A DNA stretch of 64,000 nt. It comes from Burkholderia sp. GAS332. Its GTDB lineage: Bacteria > Pseudomonadota > Gammaproteobacteria > Burkholderiales > Burkholderiaceae. Positions 1-35,850 of the stretch are shown piece after piece. The notes beneath the pieces are model-generated. The model made no database searches, had not been told where the DNA came from, and saw nothing but the letters and a program-made list of their open reading frames with translations. The stretch is taken from NCBI GenBank assembly GCA_900142905.1, contig FSRV01000003.1, forward strand, positions 740,683 to 804,682. Direction: 5' to 3'. The translations under genes and the position numbers were made by a program. The stretch's first letter is position 1; every line of letters starts with the position of its first letter.

Positions 1-1
1 C

Positions 2-11522: not shown

Positions 11523-11554
11523 ACTCGAAGGGGACGGACGCGACGGCCGTCTGG

Positions 11555-14693: not shown

Positions 14694-14878
14694 TTGGTGT
14701 AGCGGCGGACGGTCTCCTTACAAGAAGCGCAGCACCGGATGAACGCGCACGTAGCATGGCACGGTTCAGCGAACTACATAAGCGATGCCGATCGTTGAAT
14801 TGACAATCGCGGACGAGCTGCTAGGTAGGTTTACCCCATACAATCTTACACACGAAACCAAAATGCCACGGGGGAAGC

Positions 14879-16471: not shown

Positions 16472-17537
16472 CCGTATTGCGATTTGCGCTGCTGGCGGCG
16501 GAAAGACGACGCGTATTGTTGCCGATGCCGTATCTGCGGTCGGCGAAAGAGTGCTGTTGGTCACTTACACGCGTAACAACGAACAAGAACTCAAGGACCA
16601 TCTGTATAGTCACGGCCCGGTTATTCCTTCGAACATCGAGGTGATGACCTGGTTCGGATTCTTGCTGCGGGAGCTAGCGCGCCCCTACCGCCGTACGATG
16701 CATTCGCAGCGGATTGAGAGCATTCGTTTCGCTGAAGGAATTTCTGTCCCGTACGTTCCTGAAAGCAAGACATCGAAGCATTACTTCCTGGACGATCGGT
16801 ATATCTACTCCGACAAGATCGCGAAATTCATCCTCGAGTGTGATCGGCGTTCCGACGGCGCTGTCATGCGACGCCTTGCGATGCGTTTCGACCAGATTTT
16901 CGTAGACGAGGTTCAGGATATCGCTGGATATGACCTTGACCTCGTTGAACTGATGTTGAAGACAGGTATCAGACTGACGCTGGTCGGCGATCACCGGCAG
17001 GCCACGTTCGCAACAAATCATGGCAGGAAAAACAAGGCATTCGCCGGTATCAAAGTCATCGAAAAATTCCGTGCGTGGCAGAAGAGCGGACTTGCCGGCA
17101 TAGCTTATGAACAACACACGCACCGGTGTAATCAGCTAATCGCTGATCTCAGCGACACACTCTTTCCGCTGGAGCCGAAGACAACGTCTCTCAACCGCAC
17201 GTTCACTGGGCACGATGGAATTTTCATCGTGCCAACGGACCAGGTCCAAACGTACGTCGCAAAGTATTCGCCACAAATCCTCCGTTTGGACCGAAGAACC
17301 GATTGTGCAGGGCTGGACGCATTGAACTTTGGCGATTCGAAAGGCCTTACCTTCGGCCGTGTCCTGGTTTTTCCTCACGGGCTCGCAAAAAAGTGGCTTG
17401 CTACGGGCTCAGTCGCCCACATCGAGAAGTCCCTCGCCAAGATGTACGTTGGAATCACCCGCGCCAGGTACAGTTTGGCTTTCGTATTTGACCGGCCCGT
17501 TGGAATTCCAGGCGCAGTCAACCTGGGAGAAGGCTGA
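16458..17537 (+). CDS. gajB: UvrD-like superfamily 1 helicase, GajB-like (Gabija)
   Basis: Partner of the OLD nuclease, 359 residues. Seen: motif I CAAGGGKTTRI at about residue 10, motif II IFVDEVQDIAG near 150, motif III LTLVGDHRQATF near 175, motif V GLTFGRVLVF near 300 and motif VI YVGITRARYSL near 335. The whole helicase core is therefore present, but the protein is much shorter than characterised GajB (about 490), which implies reduced 1B/2B inserts. In Gabija the helicase-like subunit assembles with GajA and is thought to sense nucleotide or DNA signals during infection. The 14-base overlap suggests coupled translation. Confidence 0.83.
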   Translation: MPSASRIAICAAGGGKTTRIVADAVSAVGERVLLVTYTRNNEQELKDHLYSHGPVIPSNIEVMTWFGFLLRELARPYRRTMHSQRIESIRFAEGISVPYVPESKTSKHYFLDDRYIYSDKIAKFILECDRRSDGAVMRRLAMRFDQIFVDEVQDIAGYDLDLVELMLKTGIRLTLVGDHRQATFATNHGRKNKAFAGIKVIEKFRAWQKSGLAGIAYEQHTHRCNQLIADLSDTLFPLEPKTTSLNRTFTGHDGIFIVPTDQVQTYVAKYSPQILRLDRRTDCAGLDALNFGDSKGLTFGRVLVFPHGLAKKWLATGSVAHIEKSLAKMYVGITRARYSLAFVFDRPVGIPGAVNLGEG

Positions 17538-17900
17538 GCATCTAACGTGGATGCGGACGGCCCAGCTTGGAAAATTTATCATCGAGTTCGCTGAACCTAG
17601 ACGTCCAGTTGGGATCTAGCCCTGCGACCTATTTCGATCCGGTGATGCCGTTCATGCTGTAGCGTCGAGCGACCGCTGAGCGCGAGCAGACATCCAGCAC
17701 TACGGAACTGTTATGGGTCATTGGATAGTCAGGGATTGGCCTGCTAAACTGTGGCCGGCTATGCAAACAGCAAGGCTGCCACGCTCTCATTTGGCTGAAG
17801 TCCTGCTACAACATACATCGTATTGGCCTGAGCAACGGAACAGTATCCTTGCCCGTAGCGATGACTAGGTCTCGTCGCTAGTGGATCTAAGGATCTGAGA
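17538..17900. other. Intergenic region after gajB
   Basis: No gene, repeat or clear terminator seen. The AT content is higher than in the flanking genes. It presumably carries the promoter of the following interrupted gene, since no read-through signal is obvious. Confidence 0.35.
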
Positions 17901-18437
17901 ATGAGTGCCTTGCCCCGAGGTGGCTATCGTCAGGCTAGTAAAGAGAGGGATCAGGTGACAACCCAGAGGGACAAATACGCCGCCGGTGAGCAAGGGCTGG
18001 GCTACGTTTATCAGATTCGCTATGCGCTTGCGCATTTGATGAAGCAAGACGAGGCGCGGTCCATACTCATTGAAGCCGACGACGACGTTCAGGTCGTTGA
18101 TGTGGATGGCCAGAGCACGCTGATCTCGCTGAAGCACAAACAAGAGGGCGAGACCGTTGGCACGCTTTCTGTTGACTTCTGGAAGTCGGTTCGAATCTGG
18201 CTCGACCGCTACATCCGGGATGGGAAGATTGCCTGCGAGCACTCCTTTTGTATGGCCACGACGGCACGGGTCGGCCCAGACTCAATGTTGAGGTACTTCC
18301 TCGACAGTGCCGAACCGATCCCCAAGGATTTCGCGGAGCGGCTCATCGACGAGCTTGATAGGTCGACAACAGAACTCAGTTCCGAAATCAAGGCAACTCT
18401 CAATAAGCTCTCTAAAGACGAACGGGGCGACTTCTGA
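17901..18437 (+). pseudogene. N-terminal part of a nuclease-like (DUF4297/Mrr-type) defence protein, cut by the IS3 element
   Basis: The open frame encodes 178 residues. Seen: AAGEQGLGYVYQIRYALAHL, ILIEADDDVQVVD and STLISLKHKQEGET, then a Trp-containing helix (FWKSVRIWLDRYI). The order E...D...(I/L)SLKHK resembles PD-(D/E)xK-type nuclease domains at the N-terminus of DUF4297/Cap4 and ABC-three-component proteins. The stop TGA (18435-18437) is itself the terminal TGA of the IS3 element, so the rest of the gene is missing. No continuation was found beyond the element. Confidence 0.6.
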
Positions 18438-18474
18438 CCTTGCCCCTGTTCCGCGAATCCCATAACCGAGGGAA

Positions 18475-19365
18475 TTATGCGGCTCGTCCTTGCTGAGCTG
18501 CGAACCAGTTGTTCTCGAACGTCATGGGACTGACGTAGTCGAGTGTCGAGTGTAACCGGCGTGCATTGTAAAAACCCAGCCAGTCAATCACCTCATCCAT
18601 TGCAGCACGCCGCGTGGTGAAGTGCCGTCCATGCATACGTGCTACCTTCAGCGAACCCCACAGGCTTTCCGTCGGCGCATTGTCCCAGCAATCGCCGCGT
18701 CGGCTCATCGACGAGCGCATGCCGTAGGCCTTCAACGTGTCCTGAAACAGGCCGCCGCAATACTGGCTGCCCCGGTCGCTATGCACGATTACACCAGCCT
18801 CAGGGCGGCGCCGGAACCACGCCATGCGTAGCGCATCTGTGACCAGTTCCGCTTTCATGTGCGGCTGCATCGACCAGCCCACCACCTGCCGGCTGAACAG
18901 GTCGATGATGACCGCGAGGTAGACCCAGCCTTCGGCTGTCGCCAGATAGGTAATATCGCTCGTCCAGACCTGATTCGGGGCCGACGCCGTGAAGTTGCGC
19001 TCCAGGAGATTCGGTGCAACTGGCAGGTTGTGATTCGAGTTCGTCGTCGCGATGTACTTGCGCTTGTGCCGTGCACGAATGCCATGCTGCGCCATCAGCT
19101 TGCGAACCCGCTCCTTGCCTACACGCACGCCGCGCGCGAGCAGTTCCTTCCATATGCGCGGCCAGCCATATTCGCCTTTGACCTGCGCGTGAATCGCCTT
19201 GATGTGCGCGAGCAGGGCATCATTGCTCATGCGCCCTCTGTGCGGCTTGTCCTGGGCGGTGCGTTGCTGGCGCTGATGATATCCGCTCGGACTGACTTCC
19301 AGCGCTTCACATAGCACGGAGACTGGCCAGTGGTGTCGATTCCGGTCAATGAACGCGCACTTCAC
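18475..19365 (-). CDS. IS3-family transposase OrfB (DDE integrase domain)
   Basis: Catalytic part of the transposase, 296 residues. Seen: an HTH_21-like N-terminus (RHHWPVSVLCEALEVSPSGY), the first catalytic Asp in VWTSDITYLATAEG, the second in VIVHSDRGSQYC and the Glu in NAPTESLWGSLKVARMHG, giving the DDE triad of the rve domain. The C-terminus is complete (FYNARRLHSTLDYVSPMTF). It overlaps orfA by ATGA; an OrfAB fusion by -1 frameshift is likely (see orfA). Confidence 0.92.
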   Translation of the reverse strand: MKCAFIDRNRHHWPVSVLCEALEVSPSGYHQRQQRTAQDKPHRGRMSNDALLAHIKAIHAQVKGEYGWPRIWKELLARGVRVGKERVRKLMAQHGIRARHKRKYIATTNSNHNLPVAPNLLERNFTASAPNQVWTSDITYLATAEGWVYLAVIIDLFSRQVVGWSMQPHMKAELVTDALRMAWFRRRPEAGVIVHSDRGSQYCGGLFQDTLKAYGMRSSMSRRGDCWDNAPTESLWGSLKVARMHGRHFTTRRAAMDEVIDWLGFYNARRLHSTLDYVSPMTFENNWFAAQQGRAA

Positions 19366-19658
19366 ATCGACTCCTTCGCGAAGTACGCTGCGGCTTTTTT
19401 TAAAATATCTCGCTCCATCTTCAGGCGAGCCACTTCCGCACGCAACCGCGCCAGCTCCATCTGTTCCGGGCTCACAGGCTTCGTGCCTGCTCCGGCCAGC
19501 CTGCCTTCCCGGTCAGCCTTTACCCAGTTGTACAGCGTCTGCTCCACCACACCCAGTGTCGCCGCCACCGCCGCCATGCTTTGCCCGGCCTTGACCAGTC
19601 GCACCGCTTCCAGTTTGAACTCGAGCGTGTACTGCGCCCGCTTTGCCTTGCCCGTCAT
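19362..19658 (-). CDS. IS3-family transposase OrfA (HTH_Tnp_1)
   Basis: A 98-residue DNA-binding protein: YTLEFKLEAVRLVKAGQSMA is the helix-turn-helix start, followed by a leucine-zipper helix (LARLRAEVARLKMERDILKK). On the coding strand a run of seven A (19395-19401) forms an A-AAA-AAG slippery heptamer about 30 bases before the orfA stop, the usual place where IS3 elements shift -1 to produce the OrfAB transposase. Confidence 0.9.
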   Translation of the reverse strand: MTGKAKRAQYTLEFKLEAVRLVKAGQSMAAVAATLGVVEQTLYNWVKADREGRLAGAGTKPVSPEQMELARLRAEVARLKMERDILKKAAAYFAKESM

Positions 19659-19772
19659 CGTTTCTTCTCCTTGCTTGAGTTTACCTGCTCAGCAAGGGAT
19701 TCGTTTTACGGGGGCAAGCTCAGCGTGTATGCGGTTGGAAACTCGCATGTGTAATCGCAGCCAGCTTGTGGC

Positions 19773-21082
19773 TCAATCTGGAGAGTTCTCCAAAACATCC
19801 CATTCTGACCACTCGGGAATCGATCCGCGTCGAATAATGGTCTTAATTAGCTCGACGCACTTGAGTACCGCTTCGTCGATGATCGCTTCAACAGGCATCT
19901 TGGCTTTCAATATCTTCTTTGCCCCAGTCGCATCCTTGCCCTCGTGGACGAGCGTGCTTCTGATCTGGTACATCTCCTTTATCAAAGCAACGTTCCTCTT
20001 TCGCTCCTCCGCGTCGCCGCCAAGCAGGCGCGTCGATCGAACAGTTATTTTGTGGGTCATCTCAGCATTGCCCTGTCCCAAAAGCGCCTCAAACGCGATG
20101 GCAAGCTCCAGCGCTCGATCCCCGATACTTCTACGTCGCTGTGCCTGATTGAGGCGTTGAAGGGCTAAGCGGACTTTTCCCTTGGTGAAATCGTCTAGCT
20201 TCAGATACGCATTTACGATTTCGATCGCCTCGGTGGGATCAAGGGGGGGTAGTCATCTGACTTGTGGGGCAAAATTTCGAGCGCCCGCATCCGCCGTCCG
20301 TTTATTGACGACACGGCAAACTGGATGTCCGGATCACTGTACGCAAACCAAATATAGGCTGAGATCGGAACGCGGGGGCCAACCACGGTCAGAGCTAACG
20401 TGACTTCGCCTAGAAGTGTTTCATCAGCGAAATATCCTTTCGCTCCATCCTTGTCGTTATGGTTAGTGGTTGGGTCGAAGACCAGCGGTTCAACAATTCT
20501 TTCGAGAACGAGAGCGGACTTCGGTTGTACGAAATCAAGTGATGTCATGAGGACAGAGTCAGATGCGCCGAATTGGTAGTCGGTTAGCATCCGCTTCTGG
20601 GGGCCATCTGGGAGATCGGCTAGTGGAACGATCTTGACGCTTTTGGTCAGTGTGATCTCCTGGGCCACCGGTACACCCCAAAGAGCCTCGATCATCTTTC
20701 CCGCCGCTTTCTTGGTTCCAAGCACCTTAAGCATCCAGTCGATCGCCTCTTCCCCCGAACCAGACCGCATGGTTCTCTGTATCATCCGCTCGGCAACCTG
20801 CATCGGATAGAGGCATCCGCTGGAGGCGTCATCGTATGCTATGTGTAATGTGCGTTCACCAGGGAACCGTTTGTCTTGTTTGATCGAGGCTAGGATATCT
20901 GTAGCCAGAACTCCTACACGCATTCCTGCGTCGAATCGAACATCGCGGATGTCGGAATCGAGGGCCGTCTTCAATGTCATTTCACCGTAGGGCGTCTTGA
21001 CGGTTGCTTTGGATGCCGTCTCTAGTAGTTCAGAGAGACTGGCGGTGTCGCGCCGTTGTTTTGCCTTTCTGGGTGTATTCAT
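19773..21082 (-). pseudogene. ApeA-like HEPN protein, frameshifted at a G7/C7 tract
   Basis: Two frames together encode one protein of about 436 residues. The first (21082 down to about 20245) begins MNTPRKAKQRRDTASLSELL. The second carries LELAIAFEALLGQGNAEMTHK and YQIRSTLVHEGKD, the latter holding the HEPN R-x4-H motif. They are separated by a run of seven G on the + strand (20243-20249). With eight G the reading DDYPPLDPTEAIEIVNAYL continues without a break. Either the gene is off through tract slippage or the assembly lost a base. The C-terminus matches Apea-type HEPN proteins, so a defence RNase is likely. It lies 50 bp from the IS3 right end. Confidence 0.7.
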
Positions 21083-21106
21083 TTTCGTTCCTACGCATCG
21101 GGACCT

Positions 21107-21330
21107 TCACGAAGTCTTCGCGCCAAAGTGCTTGGCGAAATAGTCGATCATCTGCGCCGCCTGCGTCCCTTCACGGAATCGCTTCTGCTCAGCGAAGTTA
21201 GTAGACGGTACCAAGTGAATGAACTGATCTTCCGCGTACTGTGATAGCACGGCTTGCGGCTCCAGTAACGGCAACCGCAGCCCCGTGAGTCCGTTGGCGG
21301 CCTCGATCGCGGCGCCATAGCTTCCAGATT
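21107..21330 (-). pseudogene. 3' remnant of an unidentified gene just upstream of the HEPN gene
   Basis: One frame reads YGAAIEAANGLTGLRLPLLE, then QYAEDQFIHLVPSTNFAEQK and ends MIDYFAKHFGAKTS, with a stop 25 bases before the HEPN start. It looks like a genuine C-terminus but has no start; the sequence upstream switches to other fragments near 21330. Possibly the former first gene of a two-gene unit with the HEPN protein. Not recognised. Confidence 0.35.
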
Positions 21331-21434
21331 TCTGCCTTCTGCGTGGTGTTCAACCACGGTCTTCTTTGTCGTCCCATCGTGCTCCACTCTCCATTTCCGT
21401 ATTGGAACAGAGGTGTTGCATCGACCGGTTGAAT

Positions 21435-21797
21435 CCGCCGCGCGTAGTTTTGTCCATTTTCGTAGAAGTCCACGTTACGTTCGTAATAGAACGGCTCAAC
21501 GGCGTAATCGAGGAACATCAGCACAAGCAGGAAGCGTTTGTCTCAGACGTAGGTGACGCATTTGTGTTGCGACAGCACTGCGCGCTGCAGTTCCAGCAGT
21601 GGTCGCCGGTAGCCTGGCCGCCGCGCGAGCGCGTGGTATTTCAGTTCGGACGCCTGCAACCGAGGAAAATGCTCTCGAATCAACCGCGCGGCCTCGTCAT
21701 TGCTAATGGCCACCGCCGTGGCGCCTTGGAAGCGCTGCTCGTGGTTCAGTAGGTCATAACCCGTGTAGCCGCTCTCGTCGATGAAAAAGCAGTCCAT
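21435..21797 (-). pseudogene. DUF3800-family gene remnant with in-frame stop
   Basis: Begins MDCFFIDESGYTGYD, the acidic RNase-H-like start typical of DUF3800 proteins, and continues to SQHKCVTYV. A TGA at 21540-21542 then interrupts; the same frame resumes DKRFLLVLMFLDYAVEPFYY and NVDFYENGQNY. After about 21435 the similarity ends. The frame then reads a short MGRQRRPWLNTTQKAEIWKL stretch that resembles the N-terminus of some transposases. DUF3800 genes are common in defence islands; this copy is dead. Confidence 0.55.
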
Positions 21798-21949
21798 TCT
21801 GTCATCCTGATCATGCCGAATTGCCCGGCGAAGATAACGATATTCTGGCACCATTTCGCTCGTCCCGACATCTGCACGGTATAGACAGGAGACTCAGATG
21901 GCATTCACGGCCGGACACGTGCAAGCGATCATTGGGTTGGGTGGGCAGA

Positions 21950-22078
21950 ACCCCAGTCAGCATTGGGCAGAGTTCGACGTGTCCGTGGGGGGACACGATC
22001 GACAATGCGATCGCGTTATGCCCGAACTGCCATCGAGGCGCCCATCTCGGCGGGTATATTGGTGATTCCGCCGACTAA
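21950..22078 (+). pseudogene. HNH endonuclease C-terminal remnant
   Basis: The end of the frame reads DTIDNAIALCPNCHRGAHLG, the typical second half of an HNH nuclease motif (D..N.IALCPNCH...H). The first half appears in another frame as VSVGGHD just upstream, so a frameshift has broken it. A start with AGGAG before ATG 21898 may belong to the same gene. It ends about 20 bp before the IS110-derived repeat. Confidence 0.4.
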
Positions 22079-22097
22079 GAGATGGGGCCCGCCGGCG

Positions 22098-22360
22098 TTG
22101 ATAATCATGTAGCGGGCCAAGGCCTCGCGGCGAGCGGCCGAGGGGTAGAGTCGAGGTCAAGGTCAAGCAAACCCTTTGACCTGACGGAGGCCGACATGAA
22201 GTTCTGTGGAATAGACCTGCACTCGAACAACAGTGTGGTCGTGGTCAGTGACGCCGAAGACCGGATCGTACTGCAACGTCGCCTGCCGAATGAGCTCGGC
22301 GCAATCCTCGCGGCGCTGGTGCCTCACCGCGAAGATCTTGCGGGCGTGGTTGTGGAATCG
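22098..22360 (+). repeat. Left 263-bp inverted repeat = 5' end of an IS110-family element
   Basis: Base-for-base identical, in reverse complement, to 25899-26161. It starts TTGATAATCATGTAGCGGG and contains about 98 bp of leader plus the first 55 codons of an IS110-type transposase. Beyond 22360 the two copies diverge into the ends of the RIT element. Confidence 0.92.
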
Positions 22361-22444
22361 GCCTATTATGCAAGCCCCGGGATTATGCATGGTTTGTCTG
22401 TCGTTCCCAGGTGCGATCGCCCGAATTTTCGGGACTCCGGGTAG
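22196..22444 (+). pseudogene. IS110-family transposase N-terminal fragment (left copy)
   Basis: MKFCGIDLHSNNSVVVVSDA is the start of the DEDD (RuvC-like) domain, with the first catalytic Asp in GIDLH. Authentic transposase sequence stops at codon 55 (VVVES, base 22360), after which the frame runs into RIT terminal DNA until a stop at 22444. It is inactive. The ACGGAGG ribosome-binding site is retained. Confidence 0.85.
22361..22398 (+). repeat. RIT left terminal inverted repeat
   Basis: Begins GCCTATTATGCAAGCCCC and ends GGTTTGTC. It matches the reverse complement of 25861-25898 at 30 of 38 bases. Inside it ATTATGCA occurs twice, 14 bp apart, which may be two recombinase arm sites. Confidence 0.7.
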
Positions 22445-22524
22445 CGCCTCAGCAACGATAGACTTCGCATAACGGATCGTGCTCTTCTCAGATGGCTTCA
22501 CCGCCATCTCTGAGGAGAGCAACC

Positions 22525-23784
22525 ATGATCACGCAAGACGTTTCTGAAGTCGTCGCACGCAATCGCGCACGGAACGGCGTACTTGAACCAGTTGTCGGAG
22601 CTTATGCCAGATACTTGAGGCATCGCGGATACGCAAGTATTACTATCGAGAACTATCTGCAATGCGCGTCGCACTTCGGACGGTGGTTGACTGCGCAGCA
22701 CATTGATCTCGATCGCATCGATGAGCCGGTGCTGCATCGCTTCCTTACGGTGCACCTTCCCGTGTGCCATTGCTGCAAGCCAAGTCCTCGCACCCCCGCA
22801 AACCTTCGCCGCGCGCTCCGTCATCTGCTTCGCATGCTGCGCTCGGAGGGAATCCTTCCACCGAAATCGATGCTGATTTCTGAGGTTGTAAGCGAAGAGC
22901 TTCGGCGCTTTGACACGTATCTCAAGGATGTACGCGGGCTGGCTCCGGCAACGCGTCTCTACCGCCTGCGTTACGTCCATGATTTCCTGCTTGCCCAGTT
23001 CGGCTGGGGACCGATTGCGCTTGAATGTCTTAAACCAGATGACATATGTCGATTCGTCATTGATCGTGCCACAGGCTGTCAGCCCCGAACGGCCGGAATT
23101 ATTGGCGACTGTCTGCGTAGCTATTTGCGTTTCCGGCGTTTGCAGGGGCAACCTACTGAAGCCCTGACTGCCGCAGTCCCCAGAGTCGCCCACTGGTGCC
23201 TCGCGGCGTTACCGGATTCCCTTACCGATTCCGAACTCAAGGGCTTCGTGAATGCCTTCGATCGTACGTGTCCAACCGGCCGACGCGACTACGCGATGGC
23301 CCGCTGCCTGGTAGACCTGGGCTTGCGGGCGAGCGAGGTGGCGTCTATCCAGCTCGATGACCTGGACTGGCGAGAAGGCACGCTGCGGATTGCCAAAGCG
23401 AAGGCAAAGCGCACAACACTCCTGCCGTTGCCTGCGCAGACGGGACGTGCGATTGTGGACTACCTGCGTTTCGGCCGCCCCAGGACAGATAGCCGCGCCC
23501 TGTTCGTGCGGCACCGCGCTCCGCGCGATGAGCCAGTGGGACCGAGCCTGGTGCGTAACGCCGTACGCTGCGCCTACGCTCGATGTGGCCTGGCTCACCG
23601 GTGGACCGGGACCCATGTGCTACGCCATTCCGCCGCATCAAGGTTGCTTAGAGGAGGGGCAAGTCTCAAAGATATCGCCGATCTGTTGCGCCACCGCAGC
23701 GTCAATACGACGACCATCTATGTCAAAGTCGATCTGCCCAGGCTCACCGCCGTCGCGTTGCCCTGGCCGGGGAGACTCACATGA
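22525..23784 (+). CDS. RIT tyrosine recombinase A
   Basis: First recombinase of the trio, 419 residues from ATG 22525 with GAGGAGAG upstream. Seen: an N-terminal core-binding domain (RHRGYASITIENYLQCASHF), the catalytic Arg in DLGLRASEVASIQLDDLDW, a basic hairpin with AKAKRTTLLPLP, HVLRHSAASRLLRGG with the HxxR pair, LRHRSVNTTTIYVKVD with the second His and the Tyr nucleophile. All catalytic residues are present. It overlaps the next gene by ATGA, indicating coupled translation. Confidence 0.92.
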   Translation: MITQDVSEVVARNRARNGVLEPVVGAYARYLRHRGYASITIENYLQCASHFGRWLTAQHIDLDRIDEPVLHRFLTVHLPVCHCCKPSPRTPANLRRALRHLLRMLRSEGILPPKSMLISEVVSEELRRFDTYLKDVRGLAPATRLYRLRYVHDFLLAQFGWGPIALECLKPDDICRFVIDRATGCQPRTAGIIGDCLRSYLRFRRLQGQPTEALTAAVPRVAHWCLAALPDSLTDSELKGFVNAFDRTCPTGRRDYAMARCLVDLGLRASEVASIQLDDLDWREGTLRIAKAKAKRTTLLPLPAQTGRAIVDYLRFGRPRTDSRALFVRHRAPRDEPVGPSLVRNAVRCAYARCGLAHRWTGTHVLRHSAASRLLRGGASLKDIADLLRHRSVNTTTIYVKVDLPRLTAVALPWPGRLT

Positions 23785-24731
23785 AGCCCGCCACCACCAT
23801 GGTCTCCCTGGTCGAGGACTACCTCGAATACCGGCGGCGACTCGGCTTTGCCCTGGAGAGTGACGCGAGGCGGCTGCTGTGCTTTGCTCGCTTCGCCGAT
23901 CAGGTCGGTCATCGCGGTCCGATCACGGAGGAACTCGCCTTACGTTGGGCCAGTTTATCGACCCGCACCACCGCCATCACGAGGGCGGGCCGATTGAAGA
24001 TCTTGAGCCCATTCGCCAAGTATCGTCTGCAATTTGATCCCACCACCGAAATTGCTCCGCCCGGACTTTGTGGACCGGGATACCGACGGCTAACCCCGCA
24101 TATATATTCGGAGGAGGAGATCAAGGCGTTATTGGTTACTGCGCGACAACTTCCGCCCACCGGTGGCCTGCGTCCAGTTACCTGTGAAACCGTCTTCGGT
24201 CTGCTCGCCGCTACCGGTTTGCGTATATCGGAGGCGTTGGCTCTTCGGCGCCTGGACGTAGACGTCGAACGCGGCCTGCTCACGATCCGGCAGAGCAAGT
24301 TTCGCAAATCGCGTCTGGTTCCTCTACATCCGACCACCACCGAGGCCCTCCGTGCCTATGCGTGTGATCGCGATAAAAGGTTACGCGCGTCAACGACCGA
24401 CGCGTTCTTTGTGTCGGACAGCGGCAGACCGATGAACTATCGCCAGATCGAATACGCCTTCGCCTGTCTTCGCGTACAGCTGGGATGGCGGGCTCGAGGA
24501 GGTCACCCGCACCCACGCATCCACGACCTGAGGCACAGCTTTATCTGCCGCCGTCTGATCGGCTGGTACCAGGAGGGAATCAATGTCGACAACTCGATGC
24601 TTGTGCTCTCCACCTATGTCGGACACACCCAGGTCACCGACACTTTCTGGTATGTGACGGGAATACCTGAGCTGATGGCCATTGCTGGCGATCGCTTCGA
24701 GCGCTTCGCCCAAGGAGGCAGCCATGCCTGA
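23781..24731 (+). CDS. RIT tyrosine recombinase B
   Basis: Second recombinase, 316 residues. Seen: EDYLEYRRRLGFALESDARR at the N-terminus, the catalytic Arg in TGLRISEALALRRLDVD, IRQSKFRKSRLVPLHP hairpin, HDLRHSFICRRL (HxxR) and YVGHTQVTDTFWYVTG carrying the His and Tyr. Its start overlaps recombinase A by 4 bases and its end overlaps recombinase C by 8 bases. It probably acts as part of a heteromeric synaptic complex, which is inferred from the obligate trio arrangement. Confidence 0.92.
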   Translation: MKPATTMVSLVEDYLEYRRRLGFALESDARRLLCFARFADQVGHRGPITEELALRWASLSTRTTAITRAGRLKILSPFAKYRLQFDPTTEIAPPGLCGPGYRRLTPHIYSEEEIKALLVTARQLPPTGGLRPVTCETVFGLLAATGLRISEALALRRLDVDVERGLLTIRQSKFRKSRLVPLHPTTTEALRAYACDRDKRLRASTTDAFFVSDSGRPMNYRQIEYAFACLRVQLGWRARGGHPHPRIHDLRHSFICRRLIGWYQEGINVDNSMLVLSTYVGHTQVTDTFWYVTGIPELMAIAGDRFERFAQGGSHA

Positions 24732-25730
24732 ACTGCATTCATCCCCAACGTTTGCGCAGTTGATCCAGCAGTTCTTTCTGGAGCACCTGATGCAGCAACG
24801 TAACGCCAGCCCTCGAACTGTGGCAGCTTACCGCGATACCATGCGGCTGCTTCTCCAATTTGTTGAACAGCGGCTGCACCGACCACCTGAGCGCGTGGCA
24901 CTCAGCGATCTTGATGCACCGCTGATCCTTGAGTTCCTTAACCACCTCGAAGTGGGGCGCAACAACAGCATCCGCAGCCGCAACCTTCGACTTGCCGCCA
25001 TTCGCTCGTTTCCCACTACGCAGCGTTCCGAGCCCCGGAGTCGCTTCGCACGATTCAACAGGTTCTTGCGATCCCAACGAAACGCTACGAACGCCCGCTA
25101 GTCCGCTTTCTCTCACGAGACGAAATATGTGCATTGCTCGACGCTCCCGACCCCAACACGTGGTGCGGCCAGCGCGATCGAGTGATGTTGGCAACCCTCT
25201 ATAACACCGGCGCCCGGGTGTCCGAACTCATCGGCATACGCGTGGGTGACGTCGAACTGGACAGAAGCCCTTCAGTACGTCTCCACGGCAAGGGTCGCAA
25301 GGAACCTGCGGTCCCGCTTTGGCGCAGCACCGCGAGCCAGATCCGGCTCTGGCTGCGGCAGATTGGTGCCTCACCTGAACAGCGGCTCTTTCCAAATCGC
25401 TCCGGCGGACCGATGACGCGCACCGGAGTTACCGATCGACTTAACCTCGCGTACCAGGGAGCGGCAACTCGTTGCTCAGGGTTCAATGCCCGACGCATCT
25501 CACCCCACCTGGTTCGGCACGCGACTGCCATGCATCTGCTCCAGGCTGGCGTTGACCTGACAGTCATCGCGCTGTGGCTGGGTCACGAGAATCCAGCGAC
25601 TACGCACATGTACATAGAAGCAGACCTGGCCATGAAGGAACGAGCCCTGAGTGCACTCCAGGCGCCCCAGAGCAAGCAGCGCCGCTACCGGCCGACTGAC
25701 CGCCTGCTGCAGTTTCTCGATGGGCTGTGA
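24724..25730 (+). pseudogene. RIT tyrosine recombinase C, frameshifted
   Basis: The N-terminal half (FAQLIQQFFLEHLMQQRNAS ... RNLRLAAIRSF) ends in the frame starting at 24724. The rest continues in another frame as SHYAAFRAPESLRTIQQVLA, then TGARVSELIGIRVGDVELD, HLVRHATAMHLLQAGVD and LGHENPATTHMYIEAD with all catalytic residues. One extra base in the TTTCCC run at about 25009-25014 would restore a single protein of about 335 residues. Recent mutation or assembly error cannot be told apart here. Confidence 0.8.
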
Positions 25731-25832
25731 TTATGCACGTCCCAAAGAGCCCGGGCGGTCCGCGAAGGCTGTGAGGCTCGCGCATCCGGATGGGTCGCGC
25801 GGCGTGGTTTGCATTGCAGTTCACATTGGCAC

Positions 25833-26063
25833 TTACGCCGCGCAATCCAATCCGCTCAATGACAAACCGTTCATAATTCTGGGGCGCGTATAATAGGTCG
25901 ATTCCACAACCACGCCCGCAAGATCTTCGCGGTGAGGCACCAGCGCCGCGAGGATTGCGCCGAGCTCATTCGGCAGGCGACGTTGCAGTACGATCCGGTC
26001 TTCGGCGTCACTGACCACGACCACACTGTTGTTCGAGTGCAGGTCTATTCCACAGAACTTCAT
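25833..26063 (-). pseudogene. IS110-family transposase N-terminal fragment (right copy, inverted)
   Basis: Reads the same MKFCGIDLHSNNSVVVVSDA start as the left copy. The first 55 codons (25899-26063) are identical in DNA to the left copy; after that the frame enters the RIT right end. The 3' part of the IS110 gene is absent from this window on both sides. Confidence 0.85.
25861..25898 (-). repeat. RIT right terminal inverted repeat
   Basis: On the + strand it begins GACAAACC and ends TATAATAGGT. It is the partner of 22361-22398. The 130 bp between the recombinase C stop and this repeat contain no gene. Confidence 0.7.
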
Positions 26064-26161
26064 GTCGGCCTCCGTCAGGTCAAAGGGTTTGCTTGACCTT
26101 GACCTCGACTCTACCCCTCGGCCGCTCGCCGCGAGGCCTTGGCCCGCTACATGATTATCAA
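25899..26161 (-). repeat. Right 263-bp inverted repeat = 5' end of an IS110-family element
   Basis: Exact reverse complement of 22098-22360, checked base by base. Its outer end lies 8 bp beyond the stop of the neighbouring LysR gene, so that gene is not visibly truncated. Confidence 0.92.
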
Positions 26162-26169
26162 AGCCGCCG

Positions 26170-27123
26170 TCACGCGAGCAACGTCAAAGTCTCGAACAAC
26201 GCGAGGTCTTCCTTCCGGGCGGAGCGCGCATGCCGGCGTATGGCCTGCAGCAGGCATTCCACAAAGCAGCGCGCCGCGCTGCTCAACGTGCCGTTTCTGC
26301 GCGTAATGGTGGACAGCCCGATCGGCTCGAAGCGTTCCTTCAGCGACAGTGCCCGAAGCGGTATCCGAAACGACGGCGCGGCAGCGATGATCGCCGGGCA
26401 CCACGTGCACATATCGGCGTTCTCGACAAGGATCTGTTGCATCCCTAGTGATTGCGCGCGGACGATGCGTTGCTCGTCGAGCATCGCGCCGTGCCGGTAA
26501 AACAGGTATTCAAGGAGTGTCTCCCGGCCATCTGGCGCGAAATTCAGCACCCAATCCTGGTCGAGCAGATCGTGAATCGAGCGGCAGGCCTGGCGAGGAT
26601 GTCCATCGCGGACCAATATCGCGGTTTCATAGGTCAGGATCGGCTCGCAGGCGAACTCCTGCATCGCCGCTGACGAATGCAGCGGACCGATCGCAAAGTC
26701 CATGTCGCCGGTGCGCAGCAGTGGTTGTGCTACAGCCATCAGACTCTCGAAGAGTTCCAGTCGCACGTTGGGCATCCGCTGCCGGAACGACAGCACCGTC
26801 TCGGTCAGAAATGTCAGCGTGATCCAGGGCGTAATGCCGATACTGAGCCGTTCCTCCGACCGCCCGCGTAGCCGCGACAGATCGTTTTGAGCGCGGGATA
26901 ACTGGTTGAGCGCGAGCTTCGCATGGGTCAGCAGCACCTTGCCGTACTCCGTCAGGCTGATGCCTTCAGTTGCGCGCACCAGTAGCGGCAAGCCTTGACT
27001 CGTCTCGAGTTCGCGCAGCGCGCGGGTGACCGCTGCCTGTGAGAGACCGAGCGCGCGCGCCGCCCCTCGGATGCTGCCCGCCTCGGCGCTCGCGACCAGT
27101 GCCTGTAATTGATGCAGTTTCAT
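26170..27123 (-). CDS. LysR-family transcriptional regulator
   Basis: LysR-type regulator of 317 residues. The start is set at MKLHQLQALVASAEAGSIRG, not at the longer frame beginning 27162. The winged HTH contains RGAARALGLSQAAVTRALRE, and the effector domain follows from about residue 90 (RLSIGITPWITLTFLTETVL). It is transcribed divergently from the M20 hydrolase at 27273 across a 150-bp gap that holds an inverted repeat, so it most likely controls that gene and the importer behind it. It is a paralogue of the LysR at 44001-44930. Confidence 0.9.
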   Translation of the reverse strand: MKLHQLQALVASAEAGSIRGAARALGLSQAAVTRALRELETSQGLPLLVRATEGISLTEYGKVLLTHAKLALNQLSRAQNDLSRLRGRSEERLSIGITPWITLTFLTETVLSFRQRMPNVRLELFESLMAVAQPLLRTGDMDFAIGPLHSSAAMQEFACEPILTYETAILVRDGHPRQACRSIHDLLDQDWVLNFAPDGRETLLEYLFYRHGAMLDEQRIVRAQSLGMQQILVENADMCTWCPAIIAAAPSFRIPLRALSLKERFEPIGLSTITRRNGTLSSAARCFVECLLQAIRRHARSARKEDLALFETLTLLA

Positions 27124-27139
27124 CGGGCCTGTGATTGAG

Positions 27140-27158
27140 TGACAACAAACGGTTGTCA
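27140..27158. promoter_or_regulatory. Candidate LysR operator between divergent genes
   Basis: TGACAAC (27140-27146) and GTTGTCA (27152-27158) form a perfect 7-bp dyad with a 5-bp spacer in the lysR/M20 intergenic region. The half-site AGTGACAAC recurs at 44937-44945 before the paralogous pair. Confidence 0.45.
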
Positions 27159-27272
27159 TCATAACAATCTTGCAGCTTCCCCTACGGATTTTCGCTGCAT
27201 ACGATTCGCCGCGTCAGACATTTTCCAGGGCGCGCGTTCATAGCGCGCCGACCTGTCCAAGGAGTCGTTCGA

Positions 27273-28442
27273 TTGAAGCTTGACGCTGTTTTGCCCGGCA
27301 TTTCTGCTATTCAGGAAGACATGATCGCTTTGCGGCGGCGGATTCATGCACACCCGGAACTCGGGTTCCAGGAGCAGGCTACGAGCGATCTCGTTGCCGG
27401 CTGTCTCGCCGAATGGGGCTACCGTGTCACGCGCGGCCTCGGGCAGACGGGCGTAGTCGGCACGATGACAACCGGCGTTGGTCGATCACTCGGCCTGCGC
27501 GCCGATATGGATGCGCTGCCGATCCATGAGGCGACTGGCCTTTCGCACGCAAGCCGCGTCGACGGCGTCATGCATGCGTGCGGTCATGACGGCCACACCG
27601 CGATGCTGTTGGCGGCGGCGCGCCACCTAGCCGGCAACCGTGCGTTCGAGGGTACGCTAAACGTCATCTTTCAGCCTGCAGAGGAGGGGCTTGGCGGCGC
27701 GCGGGCGATGCTCGACGACGGGCTGTTCGAGCAGTTTCCATGTGACGCGGTGTTCGCGATGCACAACGTGCCAGGCTATCCGGCAGGCCACCTCGGTTTC
27801 GTGAGCGGCCCGTGCATGGCATCCGCCGACGAGGTGACGATTCGCGTGACCGGGCGCGGCGGCCATGGCGCCGCGCCCCATCACGCGGTCGATCCGGTGG
27901 TTGTGTGCTCGTCGATCGTGATGGCTTTGCAGAGTGTCGTCGCGCGTAACGTGGATCCGTTTGCCCAGGCCGTGGTCTCGGTCGGGGCGATTCACGCGGG
28001 GACTGTATCCAATGTGATTCCGGCGTCGGCCGAGATGCGGATGAGTGTCCGGGCGCTCGACCCGGCGGTTCGCGACATGCTCGAGCAACGTATCGAGGCT
28101 CTGGCGCACGGACAGGCGGCAAGCTACGGCGCGCAGGCCGACGTCCACTATGTGCGTTGCCATCCCGTGCTCGTCAATCATGCGGCCGAAACCAGATTCG
28201 CAAGGCAAGTCGCCGAGGAATGGTTGGGCTGCGATGGTCTGATCGACGATCTCGGCCCGTGCATGGCGAGCGAGGACTTCGCGTTCATGCTGCAAGCGCG
28301 TCCGGGCTGCTACTTTTCGATCGGCAACGGCGTGGGCGAGCACGGCTGTGCACTGCATAACCCGAAGTACGACTTCAACGACGACTGCCTTGCGATCGGG
28401 GCGAGTTACTGGGTGAAGCTCGCCGAGAAATTTCTGCAGTGA
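27273..28442 (+). CDS. M20-family metal-dependent amidohydrolase (hippurate hydrolase-like)
   Basis: Peptidase M20D family, cutting N-acyl amino acids such as hippurate; 389 residues. Seen: LRRRIHAHPELGFQEQ, RADMDALPI, the metal-binding HACGHDGHTAMLL near residue 105, FQPAEEG with the catalytic Glu near 138, and CMASEDFAFM near 330. The TTG start at 27273 is chosen because AAGGAG lies 8 bases upstream; the next in-frame ATG is at 27321. Divergent from its likely LysR regulator and followed by an amino-acid importer, so released amino acids or acyl amino acids are probably taken up by that system. Exact substrate unknown. Confidence 0.9.
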   Translation: MKLDAVLPGISAIQEDMIALRRRIHAHPELGFQEQATSDLVAGCLAEWGYRVTRGLGQTGVVGTMTTGVGRSLGLRADMDALPIHEATGLSHASRVDGVMHACGHDGHTAMLLAAARHLAGNRAFEGTLNVIFQPAEEGLGGARAMLDDGLFEQFPCDAVFAMHNVPGYPAGHLGFVSGPCMASADEVTIRVTGRGGHGAAPHHAVDPVVVCSSIVMALQSVVARNVDPFAQAVVSVGAIHAGTVSNVIPASAEMRMSVRALDPAVRDMLEQRIEALAHGQAASYGAQADVHYVRCHPVLVNHAAETRFARQVAEEWLGCDGLIDDLGPCMASEDFAFMLQARPGCYFSIGNGVGEHGCALHNPKYDFNDDCLAIGASYWVKLAEKFLQ

Positions 28443-28544
28443 ATGGGCTGCGCACCTGACGTTCTTAGCTGATGCGCAGCCCGTTCGATATGTATGCCGA
28501 GGTCTGGTTCCGAACCGACCGACAACCTAGGAGGAGATACTGAA

Positions 28545-29333
28545 ATGAAAAAGACGATTGCAGCGCTCTCGCTAACCCTTATGACGCTGTCGGGCATCGC
28601 CCACGCGGCTGACTGGAGCGGCAAGGAAATCCGCCTCGCCGTTGATCCAACCTACCCGCCGTTGGAGTACAAGATGCCGGACGGCACGCTGACCGGGTTC
28701 GGTGTCGACATTGCAAACGCGCTGTGCGCGGAACTGCACGCACGCTGCGTCTGGGTGGAAACCAGTTTCGACGGCATGATTCCAGGCCTGCAGGCGCGCA
28801 AGTTTGACGCGATCGCGTCGTCGATGACCATCACGCCCAAGCGCATGCAACAGATCGCATTCACCAACAAGATATCGAACGCTCCTGCCCGCCTGGTGGT
28901 CAGGCGCGGCTCGAACCTGTTGCCGAGCGCGGCCTCGCTCAAGGGCAAGCGCGTTGGCGTGGAGCAGGGTTCGAGTCAGGAAGACTACGCTCGCGCGCAG
29001 TGGCAGCCAGCGGGGGTGGAAATCGTTTCTTACCAGAATCAGGACCAGGTGTACGCCGATCTGACATCGGGCCGGCTTGACGCCTCGTTTCAGGCTTCGA
29101 TCGAAGCCAGCGACGGCTTCCTGAAAAAGCCCCAAGGGAAGGATTTCATGTTTTCGGGCCAGCCCATCGAGGATCCGAAGTACTTCGGCCTCGGTGACGG
29201 TCTCGGACTGCGCAAGGATGATGTCGCTCTGCGCGAGGCGTTCAATCAGGCGCTGGCGACCATTCTGGCAAACGGGACGTACGCCCGCATCAACAACAAG
29301 TACTTCGATTTCGATGCCTACGGCGCGAAGTAG
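28545..29333 (+). CDS. Polar amino-acid ABC transporter, periplasmic binding protein (HisJ/ArgT type)
   Basis: Substrate-binding protein of 262 residues, family 3. Seen: a signal peptide (MKKTIAALSLTLMTLSGIAHAA), then LAVDPTYPPLEYKMPDGTLT with the family ligand loop, GFGVDIANALCAEL, FDGMIPGLQARKFDAIASSM and GVEQGSSQEDYA. GGAGGAG precedes the ATG. A basic amino acid or opine is the usual ligand of close relatives; the precise ligand is not deducible. The matching permeases and ATPase follow at 30961-33166, separated by a porin gene. Confidence 0.9.
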   Translation: MKKTIAALSLTLMTLSGIAHAADWSGKEIRLAVDPTYPPLEYKMPDGTLTGFGVDIANALCAELHARCVWVETSFDGMIPGLQARKFDAIASSMTITPKRMQQIAFTNKISNAPARLVVRRGSNLLPSAASLKGKRVGVEQGSSQEDYARAQWQPAGVEIVSYQNQDQVYADLTSGRLDASFQASIEASDGFLKKPQGKDFMFSGQPIEDPKYFGLGDGLGLRKDDVALREAFNQALATILANGTYARINNKYFDFDAYGAK

Positions 29334-29496
29334 TCAGGTCAAACGGTCTCTGTCGGTTCTGTATGCTATCGCATGAATTCCGATGGAGGCTTTGACAGAG
29401 GTGTCCGCGACGCGGTAAGGACCCAGAAGGCTGAGTTGTTGCGGTGTGATCTTAAAGTACAGCTATATTGATATTATAAAATATTAGGATACCATA

Positions 29497-30654
29497 GTGA
29501 AAAGAGTGATTGCAGCCGTGTCGCTATCTGCCTTAACGGGCATTACGTATGCGCAGAACGGTGTCACACTTTACGGTCGCGTGGACAACGGCATTCAATA
29601 TCAGACGGGCCTGGCTACAGGCCACCAGGTGAGCCTGGAGACGGGGAACTGGGCTCCATCTGAATTCGGACTGAAGGGAGCCGAGGATCTGGGGGGCGGA
29701 ACAAAAGCGATTTTCCGGCTGGAGGCAGGTCTCGATACATTGAATGGGACCTCCATGGGATCGCTCTTTGGACGTCAGGCCACCGTTGGGCTGACAAGTG
29801 ATGTCTGGGGCACATTCAAGCTCGGCAACTTCGGAAGCTATGAAATCCAGCAGGACAGCTTTGATGTCGACCCGCAGGTCATGCAACTGTATGCGCTGTC
29901 AACTCTGGTTCGCGGACGCAACTGGTCCAATGCTGGCAACGGTCTCGAATACACTTCGCCGACTTGGGGCGGTTTGACGATCAAAGGGCAGTACGACCTG
30001 ACAAACAGCACCACATGGAATGCTGGCAATCCGGGCAGCGGGCAAGTTGGGGCGCCGCAAGGGCGCTCAGACGGCATCAAGGCGCAATACGATGGAGCGA
30101 ACCTTGAATTGCTCGCAATCTACGATGAAATTCGCGATTCCAACGGCCAGTTTAGCAACGTGTATACCGCCTCGCGGTCTGCTCTCGTTGGCGGCACCTA
30201 TCAGGTTGGCCCCGTGAAATTCTATGCTGCGTACCAGCACCTGAGCGCGCCCAGCGCGTCGGACTATGGCTATTTCGGTACTTCGACGCCGACCACGCAG
30301 CCGGGCGGCGTTTCCTTGCCGACGGTGGTCGACCATGAATGGGCGGGTGCGACGTGGCAGGTCAGCTCATTTACGGCTCTGACGGCTGCCGTTTATCACG
30401 CAAATGCGAACAAGGGGAATGGCAACGCGACGATGTTCACGCTGTCCGGGACGTATAACCTGTCGAAGCGCACGTTCCTGTATTCGGAGTTGGGCTATAT
30501 CCGCAACAGCTCGACCTCGAACATTGGGTTGGACGATGGCAACTATGGTGCGAATGTGAACAATGATCCGGTCAACGGTAGTAGCAGCAACACCAATCCG
30601 GACTACGGTCACGGCCAACTTGGGGCATTCGCAGGCATTGTGACTCAGTTCTAG
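29497..30654 (+). CDS. Gram-negative trimeric porin (Burkholderia OmpC-like)
   Basis: Outer-membrane 16-stranded porin, 385 residues. Seen: a signal peptide ending AYAQ, then NGVTLYGRVDNGIQYQTG, GLKGAEDLGGGTKAIFRLE in the constriction-loop region, alternating beta strands, and the C-terminal signature GQLGAFAGIVTQF ending in Phe for barrel assembly. The start is GTG; an AT-rich promoter-like stretch with TTGATATTATAAAATATT lies immediately upstream. It is inserted between the binding protein and the permeases of the ABC importer, consistent with co-operation in uptake. Confidence 0.92.
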   Translation: MKRVIAAVSLSALTGITYAQNGVTLYGRVDNGIQYQTGLATGHQVSLETGNWAPSEFGLKGAEDLGGGTKAIFRLEAGLDTLNGTSMGSLFGRQATVGLTSDVWGTFKLGNFGSYEIQQDSFDVDPQVMQLYALSTLVRGRNWSNAGNGLEYTSPTWGGLTIKGQYDLTNSTTWNAGNPGSGQVGAPQGRSDGIKAQYDGANLELLAIYDEIRDSNGQFSNVYTASRSALVGGTYQVGPVKFYAAYQHLSAPSASDYGYFGTSTPTTQPGGVSLPTVVDHEWAGATWQVSSFTALTAAVYHANANKGNGNATMFTLSGTYNLSKRTFLYSELGYIRNSSTSNIGLDDGNYGANVNNDPVNGSSSNTNPDYGHGQLGAFAGIVTQF

Positions 30655-30960
30655 GTCTGAGCGCGGTCACAGTGAATAAGTATCGCAAACCACAAAGCGA
30701 GCGATAGGACATCCCGGTGCAGCCTCATCTGCCTGACAGAATCAGGTAAGCGATATTGAACAGATGGGCTGCGCATCTAGGGAAGGGCAGGTACGTTCAC
30801 ATCGTCGTGTCGTTCGCGTTCCTTTAGGTGTGGCGAGCAGGTAAAGCAGACACCATTGTCATTCGCCGCTTTGTCTTTGCCTTATCTGGAGGAGTCGCGA
30901 GTTGGTTCCAGATTGTGCAGAGTGGTTTCCATGGTTGAGTCAACGTGAAGGATATAGGTC
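30655..30960. other. Intergenic region between porin and permease genes
   Basis: No gene or strong hairpin recognised. GAAGGATATAGGTC just before 30961 provides the ribosome-binding site for the first permease. Confidence 0.35.
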
Positions 30961-31650
30961 ATGTATTTCCAAGGCTTCGGTCCCGCGCTTTTTGCGGGTG
31001 CTTGCGAGACGATCGAACTCGCGATGTTGTCGCTGGCGATCGCATTCGTCCTTGGACTCTGCGGCGCCGCGGCGAAATTGTCCGGGCGGCGCTTGCTGGT
31101 TCGCTGCGGTGCGGTCTACACCACCCTGATCCGGTCGACGCCAGATCTGGTGCTTATGCTCCTGCTCTTCTACAGCACCCAAATACTGCTGAATAGCGTT
31201 ACAGATGCGCTCGGTTTTGCGCAAATCAACATCGATCCGTTCACCGCCGGCGTGCTGACGATTGGTTTTATCTATGGTGCCTACTTCACCGAAACGTTCC
31301 GAGGTGCGTTACTTGGCGTGCCCCGAGGTCAGTTGGAGGCGGGCGTGGCATACGGCATGTCCGGTTGGCAGGTGTTCCACAGGGTCATGTTTCCGCAGAT
31401 GATGCGCCTTGCGTTGCCGGGCATCGGCAACAACTGGCAGGTGATCGTCAAGGCGACCGCACTTGTCTCGATCATCGGTCTGTCGGATGTGGTGAAGGCT
31501 GCGCAGGATGCGGGCAAGGCGACCCAGAATTTCTTTCTGTTCACACTGCTGACTGGCGCCGTCTATCTTTGCATTACCACCGTGTCTAATGTGGTTCTGG
31601 CATGGCTGGAGGTGCGATATGCAGCAGGTGTGAGGCGGGCGGCGACATGA
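30961..31650 (+). CDS. Amino-acid ABC transporter permease (HisQ-type)
   Basis: Inner-membrane permease of 229 residues with about five hydrophobic helices (for example ETIELAMLSLAIAFVLGLCG). The family EAA-loop is seen as GVPRGQLEAGVAYGMSGWQVFHRVM, which docks the ATPase. The conserved N-terminal segment TLIRSTPDLVLMLLLFY matches His/Glu/Gln/Arg/opine permeases. Its stop overlaps the next start (ATGA). Works with 31647 and 32384 and the binding protein at 28545. Confidence 0.92.
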   Translation: MYFQGFGPALFAGACETIELAMLSLAIAFVLGLCGAAAKLSGRRLLVRCGAVYTTLIRSTPDLVLMLLLFYSTQILLNSVTDALGFAQINIDPFTAGVLTIGFIYGAYFTETFRGALLGVPRGQLEAGVAYGMSGWQVFHRVMFPQMMRLALPGIGNNWQVIVKATALVSIIGLSDVVKAAQDAGKATQNFFLFTLLTGAVYLCITTVSNVVLAWLEVRYAAGVRRAAT

Positions 31651-32372
31651 TGGACATCATCCGCCAGTACTGGCAGAACTACCTGTTCACCGATGGATAT
31701 CAATTCACCGGCCTTGCGATCACGCTATGGCTTCTCGTCGCATCCATCGTGTTGGGTTTCGTGCTCGCACTGCCGCTCGCCATTGCACGTGCCTCAAGCA
31801 ACCGCTTGCTCTCGGCGCCGGTATGGTTGTTCACGTACGTTTTCAGAGGGACGCCGCTCTATGTGCAGTTGCTCCTCTGCTACACGGGGCTCTACAGCCT
31901 GCAAGTCGTGCAGTCACATGCCCTGCTGGACAGTTTCTTCCGGAGCGCCATGAACTGCACTCTGCTGGCATTCGCGCTGAACGAGTGCGCGTATGTGACC
32001 GAAATCATAGCAGGTGCGATCAAGACGACCCCGTACGGTGAAGTCGAGGCGGGTTATGCGTTTGGTATGTCGCGGTTCACACTCCATCGACGGATCGTGC
32101 TGCCCTCTGCGTTGCGCCGTGCGCTGCCTATGTACAGCAACGAAGTGATACTGATGTTGCATTCGACCACGCTGGCATTTACCGCCACCGTGCCCGACAT
32201 CCTGAAAGTCGCGCGAGACGTCAACTCTGCGACCTATGCCTCTTTTGAGGCATTCGGTATCGCAGCGTGTCTGTATGCATCTATCGCCTTTTTGCTGGTG
32301 TGGATCTTCAGGAAGCTGGAGAAGCGCCTGCTGGCCTTTCTTGGTCCGGCAAGCGCCGCCCGTAATCATTGA
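31647..32372 (+). CDS. Amino-acid ABC transporter permease (HisM-type)
   Basis: Second permease, 241 residues. Seen: [20 protein letters not shown], the EAA-loop [23 protein letters not shown] and about five membrane helices. The ATG at 31647 is selected because it overlaps the previous stop by four bases. Forms the heterodimeric pore with HisQ. Confidence 0.92.
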
Positions 32373-32383
32373 CCGTGACAGAT

Positions 32384-33166: not shown

Positions 33167-33333
33167 GCGCAGGTGCTCTCTTGGCGGTGTCGGGGGACTT
33201 CGTACACGACGCATATCCACATACCCATTCTATGTGAGCGTATGCGGGTCCTTTGCTTACAAATTAGCTCACGGTGTTCGTGTACGAGGTCACCACCGTT
33301 CCTCGAGTCGGTCTTTTTCCTGGACGAGTCGGG

Positions 33334-34431: not shown

Positions 34432-34508
34432 AAGATTCTCCTCCGTCGTACTGTTTTTTGATATTGAAAAGCGTGTCAAATTTTCTGTAATATAAATAGG
34501 ATTACTAA

Positions 34509-34544: not shown

Positions 34545-34552
34545 TTCTTGCG

Positions 34553-35812: not shown

Positions 35813-35850
35813 ACGGGTTCCAAAAGAGGGATAAATGAGGTGGAGGACGG

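Follow-up and report, generated by a model that had tools for sequence, protein, structure and literature searches.

A RIT element between two mirror-image IS110 5′ ends in Burkholderia sp. GAS332, probably formed by recombination between opposite insertions

RIT elements carry three adjacent, overlapping tyrosine recombinase genes within about 3.5 kb of DNA bounded by terminal inverted repeats (Van Houdt 2012, PMC3414803, in extract), and the same extract mentions a palindromic sequence near RIT ends and a RIT inside a transposase gene, whilst stating that RIT mobility had not yet been experimentally demonstrated. In Tn554 the orientation of insertion is determined by TnpC (PMC5385486, in extract). 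Here we describe a RIT in 64,000 nucleotides of DNA, hereafter the window, at C3:740683-804682 of the Burkholderia sp. GAS332 genome (10.4 Mb in 3 contigs, C1 to C3; assembly scored 100% complete with 3.12 contamination). This RIT stands between two inverted copies of the 5′ end of one IS110 insertion sequence (IS), and we consider it likely that two RITs, inserted in opposite orientations at the same codon of two IS110 copies, recombined to give the present 5′-RIT-5′ structure. Other loci and genomes are cited by our own numbers (L and G respectively).

The RIT and its two IS110 arms

The features of the site are as follows.

22094..22098, plus strand: left flank of IS110 copy A, GGCGT, directly before TGATAATC; GGC(T/G/C)(T/C) also precedes the IS110 5′ end in L003, L179, L180, L181 and L004
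22098..22360, plus strand: 5′ end of IS110 copy A, a 263-bp arm with the first 55 transposase codons if ATG 22196 is the start
22361..22398, plus strand: left terminal inverted repeat of the RIT, ritA side, joined to the IS110 5′ half without a palindromic linker (compared with L011, L013 and L057); 30/38 match to the right end
22525..23784, plus strand: ritA, tyrosine recombinase of 419 amino acids (PF00589, 5.9e-27; HVLRH motif)
23781..24731, plus strand: ritB, tyrosine recombinase of 316 amino acids, 4-bp overlap with ritA (PF00589, 1.7e-21; HDLRH motif)
24724..25730, plus strand: ritC, frameshifted near 25,013 (frames 24682-25101 and 25134-25730); open in L011 and L013
25861..25898, minus strand: right terminal inverted repeat of the RIT, ritC side, joined to the IS110 5′ half without a linker
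25899..26161, minus strand: 5′ end of IS110 copy B, a 263-bp arm, inverted
26162..26166, minus strand: flank of IS110 copy B, GGCTT on this strand

The first-pass annotation of this DNA had described exact reverse complements enclosing a three-recombinase RIT with imperfect 38-bp ends, and the arms indeed show no mismatch over 263 bp. The repeat tool reported a longer ungapped pair (22090-22398/25861-26169, 309 nt, 97%), because it includes the imperfect RIT ends, the 38 bases inward of each arm. At 3538 bp, with terminal inverted repeats and gene overlaps of 4 bp (ritA/ritB) and 8 bp (ritB/ritC), the element has the length of about 3.5 kb and the 4-8 bp overlaps of a RIT, and with ritA and ritB open, PF00589 was detected in both of these and in the latter of the two ritC frames. 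It is a decayed member in that not all three recombinases are intact: the product of the frameshifted ritC is probably inactive, and this copy is therefore probably no longer mobile by itself. Only 168 bp separate the end of ritC from the end of the RIT, and no further gene of the SE/GInt type follows the three recombinases.

Both arms are the 5′ end of an IS110 element, as had been proposed. An intact copy lies on the same replicon (C3:430.6-431.8 kb) and encodes a 337-amino-acid transposase scoring 184.6 bits against the NF033542 cut-off of 140; two bases set it apart from the arms, one in the interior and one where the left arm borders the RIT. At the site itself no full transposase lies between two IS110 ends; 5′ halves only flank the RIT. 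In the left arm TGATAATC, the IS110 5′ end, is preceded by GGCGT, and in the right arm by GGCTT (minus strand, with the stop codon of lysR adjoining at 26170), and five other copies of the same IS110 group are preceded by GGCTT (L003, L179), GGCCT (L180), GGCGT (L181) and GGCTC (L004); in this comparison L184 gave no match to the terminus and two further loci were left out. Since the outer edges of both arms coincide with the IS terminus beside two different IS110-like flanks, GGC(T/G)T, the arms appear to stem from two independent IS110 insertions, not from duplication of one fragment.

Target codon, orientation and palindrome

Relatives of this RIT were gathered from a scan of genomes of the species (16 loci) and a RitB search of 398 family genomes, of which 63 matched at 1e-40. 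In L011 (P. ferrariae, 98% nucleotide identity) and L057 (G369, RitB 86% identical; L028 is the same locus) IS110 codons 1-57 precede ritA and the remainder lies beyond ritC, a 5′-RIT-3′ arrangement, whilst in L013 (P. tuberum, 85% nucleotide identity) the RIT is reversed within the same codon. L012 (84%) shows only the IS110 5′ side, again at this codon, and RIT fragments of about 530 and 276 bp stand there in L179 (G414) and L180 (G441), the rest of the RIT being missing from the stretch. Thus RITs of this clade enter IS110 at one codon and in both orientations, which bears out the earlier premise of two insertion orientations at one IS110 site. The target proteins are 60-66% identical to the host copy in L011, L012, L013 and L057, and 96% (L179) and 88% (L180) over the first 57 amino acids; the different insertion places in relatives suggest that the clade is mobile. 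In L014/L058 this RIT stands at a contig end with its flank unreadable. Among 48 relative loci (duplicates included) IS110 halves adjoin the RIT only in L028/L057, with one weak IS110 match at L060, and IS110 targeting is therefore claimed for this clade only.

In the three relatives with both sides readable (L011, L013 and L057) the RIT is separated from the IS110 3′ half by a palindrome, a perfect one of 34 bp in L057, irrespective of which RIT end faces that half; the intact IS110 lacks it. At the window no palindrome is present and the IS110 sequence runs straight into the RIT on either side, which is what two joined 5′-type junctions should give. Typical RIT insertions carry the palindrome, of about 20-40 bp, on one side only, and in the target families checked its side follows the target, not the RIT orientation. 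Identical RIT copies in G380, inserted in opposite orientations in a gene which we take from its translation to be IS66, have it on the same target side, as do the copies of the host's second RIT at C3:53 kb and C3:456 kb, which lie in both orientations in what is presumably an IS91-like gene. These last two (L231, C3:49.2-58.8 kb; L232, C3:452.0-461.6 kb) are identical over 3396 bp (100%), opposite in orientation and about 400 kb apart, and so are substrates for the same kind of rearrangement. On a plasmid of Croceicoccus E4A9 other than the one compared below, an intact IS66 (in plasmid loci this name comes from the record annotation) matches the L255 flank at 100% and ends 8 bases into the palindrome.

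For a wider count, duplicate fetches (L027-L056 except five) were dropped, which left 132 places; no inverted repeat was found at 42, 19 with arms >60 bp were set aside, nine had short flanks and 62, near-identical copies included, were scored. The palindrome stood on one side in 39 of these (left only 20, right only 19), on both in one and on neither in 22, against 4/118 control pieces taken 400 bp further out; by palindrome side, RIT insertion is close to 50:50. If one circular form inserted both ways, the palindrome centre should appear in opposite senses at the two RIT ends, and opposite senses were seen in L255, in L249 and between the identical G044 copies L063 and L064/L065. Short sequences resembling one another (GAAAGA, GAACGA) are repeated at the RIT-palindrome, palindrome-target and RIT-target joints of L061/L062.

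Mirror-image junctions around other RITs

We compared the left flank with the inverted right flank at the 80 of 151 RitB places (duplicates included) that had at least 500 bp on both sides. An inverted translated match at 1e-4 was obtained for 29, mostly short or at the RIT's own ends, and clear inverted target halves were found at the window and at L192. The latter is a 5′-RIT-5′ structure between two 5′ ends, with tnpA and the start of tnpB, of what we take to be IS66, its arms being 71% alike; L191, with the same RIT (99.7%), has the palindrome beside what reads as the presumed IS66 3′ half. Set aside were L217 (163-bp arms, 99%), which runs to the contig end on both sides and may have arisen in assembly, and L187, a RIT joined to part of another RIT; the arms of L234 and L245 (70% and 84%) could not be assigned to target halves, and L021, L090 and L240 gave inverted matches of ambiguous kind.

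A further 24 RIT loci, mostly from the top of the list and chosen before their flanks were seen, were fetched from 88 matching plasmid records, and of these three had clear mirror junctions and one (L267) was unclear. Two IS66 5′ parts are joined in L257, 72% alike, both reaching TGRIWTYV and with no palindrome seen, whilst L255 and L249 have 3′ halves and a palindrome on each side (3′-palindrome-RIT-palindrome-3′), with an IS1595 between left arm and ritA in L249. Both classes predicted by recombination between opposite insertions, 5′-5′ and 3′-3′, therefore occur around other RITs: the former between diverged IS66 copies in L192 and Rhizobium CB3171, the latter in Rhodovastum and Croceicoccus OT19. 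Given their divergence, the arms of L192 and L257 come from two different IS copies.

Other inverted structures were of different kinds. L267 has group II intron genes (ltrA) at both RIT ends (3000-6700) and identical outer arms >3.2 kb, and was placed in neither the 5′ nor the 3′ class; the RIT palindromes may have been the target of the intron. The arms of L269 are ISAzo6 copies, and the 112-bp arms of L262 and L270 adjoin rit genes and look like RIT ends. L059, L084, L088 and L251 contain pairs of RITs that point towards one another with their ends almost touching, as though one RIT had inserted beside the other or within its end.

These structures would be explained if two copies of one IS110, at two different sites, each received a RIT at one and the same codon (about 55), the two RITs facing opposite ways relative to IS110, and if recombination between these RITs, by RecA or by the Rit proteins, then placed a single RIT between the 5′ half of copy A and that of copy B, the latter inverted; the exchange would also yield 3′-palindrome-RIT-palindrome-3′. 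Both orientations would be possible because the end-joint of a RIT circle, inverted repeat-palindrome-inverted repeat, would be a near-perfect palindrome of which either side can recombine with the target, integration at one or other border giving one or other orientation. The exchange would be an inversion if the two IS110 copies lay in the same direction on a single replicon, and a deletion, giving the same structure, if they were convergent; replicon fusion is a third option. A deletion needs no reciprocal product, and therefore better fits a host in which neither 3′ fragment nor second copy of this RIT nor palindrome was found.

Croceicoccus offers a comparison of gene order. E4A9 carries the same RIT as OT19 as a normal insertion, with palindrome and 3′ half on the ritA side, whilst one OT19 plasmid holds, besides the 3′-palindrome-RIT-palindrome-3′ locus (583.7 kb), a normal insertion that is turned the other way (863.9 kb). 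E4A9 730000-737738 corresponds to OT19 528502-536242 in the same sense, and E4A9 745601-761621 with 1-19994, which comes next in E4A9, to OT19 575413-587387 and 537130-557895 in the opposite sense, the inverted OT19 stretches being separated by about 17 kb of other DNA and showing several IS differences. The 3′-3′ RIT junction is thus one end of a block of about 36 kb inverted relative to E4A9; to its right, the neighbouring OT19 DNA has no match in E4A9 beyond IS66 copies and short stretches at 64-84%.

At the window, gene order was compared with 144 genomes of the genus. The left flank (19700-22097) has a match in 87, nearly all short or repeat-like (longest 360 bp, 76%, G447), and the right flank some match in 141, the whole block occurring only in G389 among five relatives fetched. 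This block (26172-40586) is collinear with G389 but in another context there, where the genes beyond lysR have matches scattered over host C1 and C2. The major facilitator superfamily (MFS) gene that adjoins lysR in G389 is 62% identical in amino acids to the window MFS gene at 40799, which follows the end of the common block (40586-40799) and is the best host match to it. An inverted 14.4-kb block hinted at by this gene was not used, as 62% compares with 74-88% for 11 other block genes (porins lower), and no IS110 or RIT match was found at 40586-40799. An IS3-family-like element of two open reading frames, with an rve domain in the larger, lies 2.4 kb left of the RIT site (18475-19658), and an ATPase whose end is TOPRIM-like precedes a UvrD-like helicase (14879-17537), a candidate Gabija-type pair.

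Several observations weigh against recombination between opposite insertions. In the 3-contig host no 3′ IS110 fragment and no second copy of this RIT or of the whole inverted repeat-RIT-inverted repeat unit was found, and a palindrome search of the host allowing up to three mismatches gave one unlike match only (C3:7281). The perfect identity of the two arms also fits one copied 5′ end. The assembly behind L192 is a draft of about 630 contigs, and drafts (L192, L217) may misjoin at repeats. In OT19 the reciprocal 5′-RIT-5′ is not on the plasmid and the other block end is IS-rich and without a RIT, so that either the reciprocal joint was lost or the inversion had another partner there. Finally, 22 of the 62 scored loci lacked a palindrome on either side at the threshold used, although L258 and L253 among them have a shorter or imperfect one visible, and the centre sense does not fit one fixed circle form in the G292 copies L068/L071 or in L254 and its relative L258; the centre can therefore turn over, and its polarity is not used as proof. 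The earlier interpretation of the site accordingly holds in part: 5′-5′ and 3′-3′ junctions do occur elsewhere, one of them (Croceicoccus) ending an inverted segment, but a breakpoint of a large inversion is no more than one possibility here: the 3′-RIT-3′ junction expected in the same genome, with inverted IS110 3′ fragments, was not found in the host, so that deletion or later loss is at least as likely as inversion.

Alternative explanations and known systems

A single RIT insertion would suffice if its unused crossover site, between RIT end and palindrome, recombined with an empty IS110, giving 5′A-RIT-5′B and 3′A-palindrome-3′B. Such site-specific capture requires fewer prior insertions and is consistent with the RIT end and palindrome forming a symmetric unit with two equivalent borders (as in the perfect 34-bp palindrome of L057) and with the likeness of the three joint types in L061/L062. 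However, it does not yield the 3′-palindrome-RIT-palindrome-3′ structures of L249 and L255, and no 3′-palindrome-3′ junction was found in the search, which covered the host genome; we regard it as improbable. The idea behind it, that the palindromic attachment site of the RIT has two-fold symmetry and two equivalent crossover points, of which integration spends one whilst the other stays live between RIT and palindrome, so that an integrated RIT could fuse a second target copy to its free end, is itself doubtful, if somewhat less so. Were it true, the RIT would be a built-in rearrangement device stitching IS copies together, with mirror-image IS halves as the scar.

A fold-back duplication, in which one IS110 5′ half was copied inverted around the RIT by template switching or gene conversion, would account for the identity of the arms, which share one base different from the closest other copy (L003). 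It should not stop exactly at the IS110 terminus, as both arms do beside their two different flanks, and the equivalent arms of L192 and L257, at 71-72%, are two different IS copies; we think it very unlikely. The first-pass annotation had offered as a further option that the IS110 5′ ends were taken up by the RIT to extend its terminal inverted repeats and that the whole moves as a composite unit. Identical arms ending at the IS110 terminus would suit this, but the unit was found once in the host rather than at several unrelated sites, no plasmid record covers 80% of the query, the outer flanks fit IS110's own flank pattern, and the three further IS110-RIT loci (of six) with both sides readable, L011, L013 and L057, have 5′ and 3′ halves (L012, L179 and L180 are one-sided and do not decide); a composite unit is thus highly improbable. 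An assembly error joining two RIT insertions of the host, to which a 3.5-kb repeat could mislead an assembler, is most improbable of all, the RIT having been found once in a 3-contig genome scored as complete and related architectures occurring in complete plasmid records.

No such mirror junction is mentioned in the extracts used of PMC3414803, PMC10214605, PMC5385486 and PMC8138268, and a prior description in Van Houdt 2009 or Ricker 2013 is possible. If two opposite insertions did recombine at the window, the structure offers a testable picture of a symmetric attachment site, orientation-free insertion at a fixed transposase codon and a scar where two insertions recombine. RITs and their targets of the IS66, IS110 and IS91-like kinds are found time and again on large replicons, so that inversions, deletions and replicon fusions could plausibly arise by such recombination, and past events could be counted in finished genomes from the mirror-image IS halves. 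Genomes are also rearranged by exchange between repeated copies of an IS, the repeated mobile element serving as the crossover segment; here, by contrast, the crossover would lie inside a second element nested in both IS copies, and two mirror-image IS halves would remain as a recognisable scar.

The arms share their sequence with the 5′ end of IS110 RNA-guided transposase elements (NF033542 for the intact copy), but unlike those elements the site has 5′ halves alone, from which no full transposase can be encoded. With the RIT elements of PMC3414803 (in extract) the element in the window shares three overlapping recombinase genes, a length of about 3.5 kb and terminal inverted repeats; the fixed IS110 codon, both orientations, a palindrome whose side depends on the target (in the families checked) and the RIT-bridged 5′-5′ and 3′-3′ junctions go beyond the description given there. 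Tn554, SE and GInt elements likewise have several tyrosine recombinases acting together and site-specific insertion (PMC10214605, PMC5385486, both in extract), but they carry a further conserved gene (TnpC, Srap or GinD), whereas the RIT is without it and inserts at about 50:50 by palindrome side.

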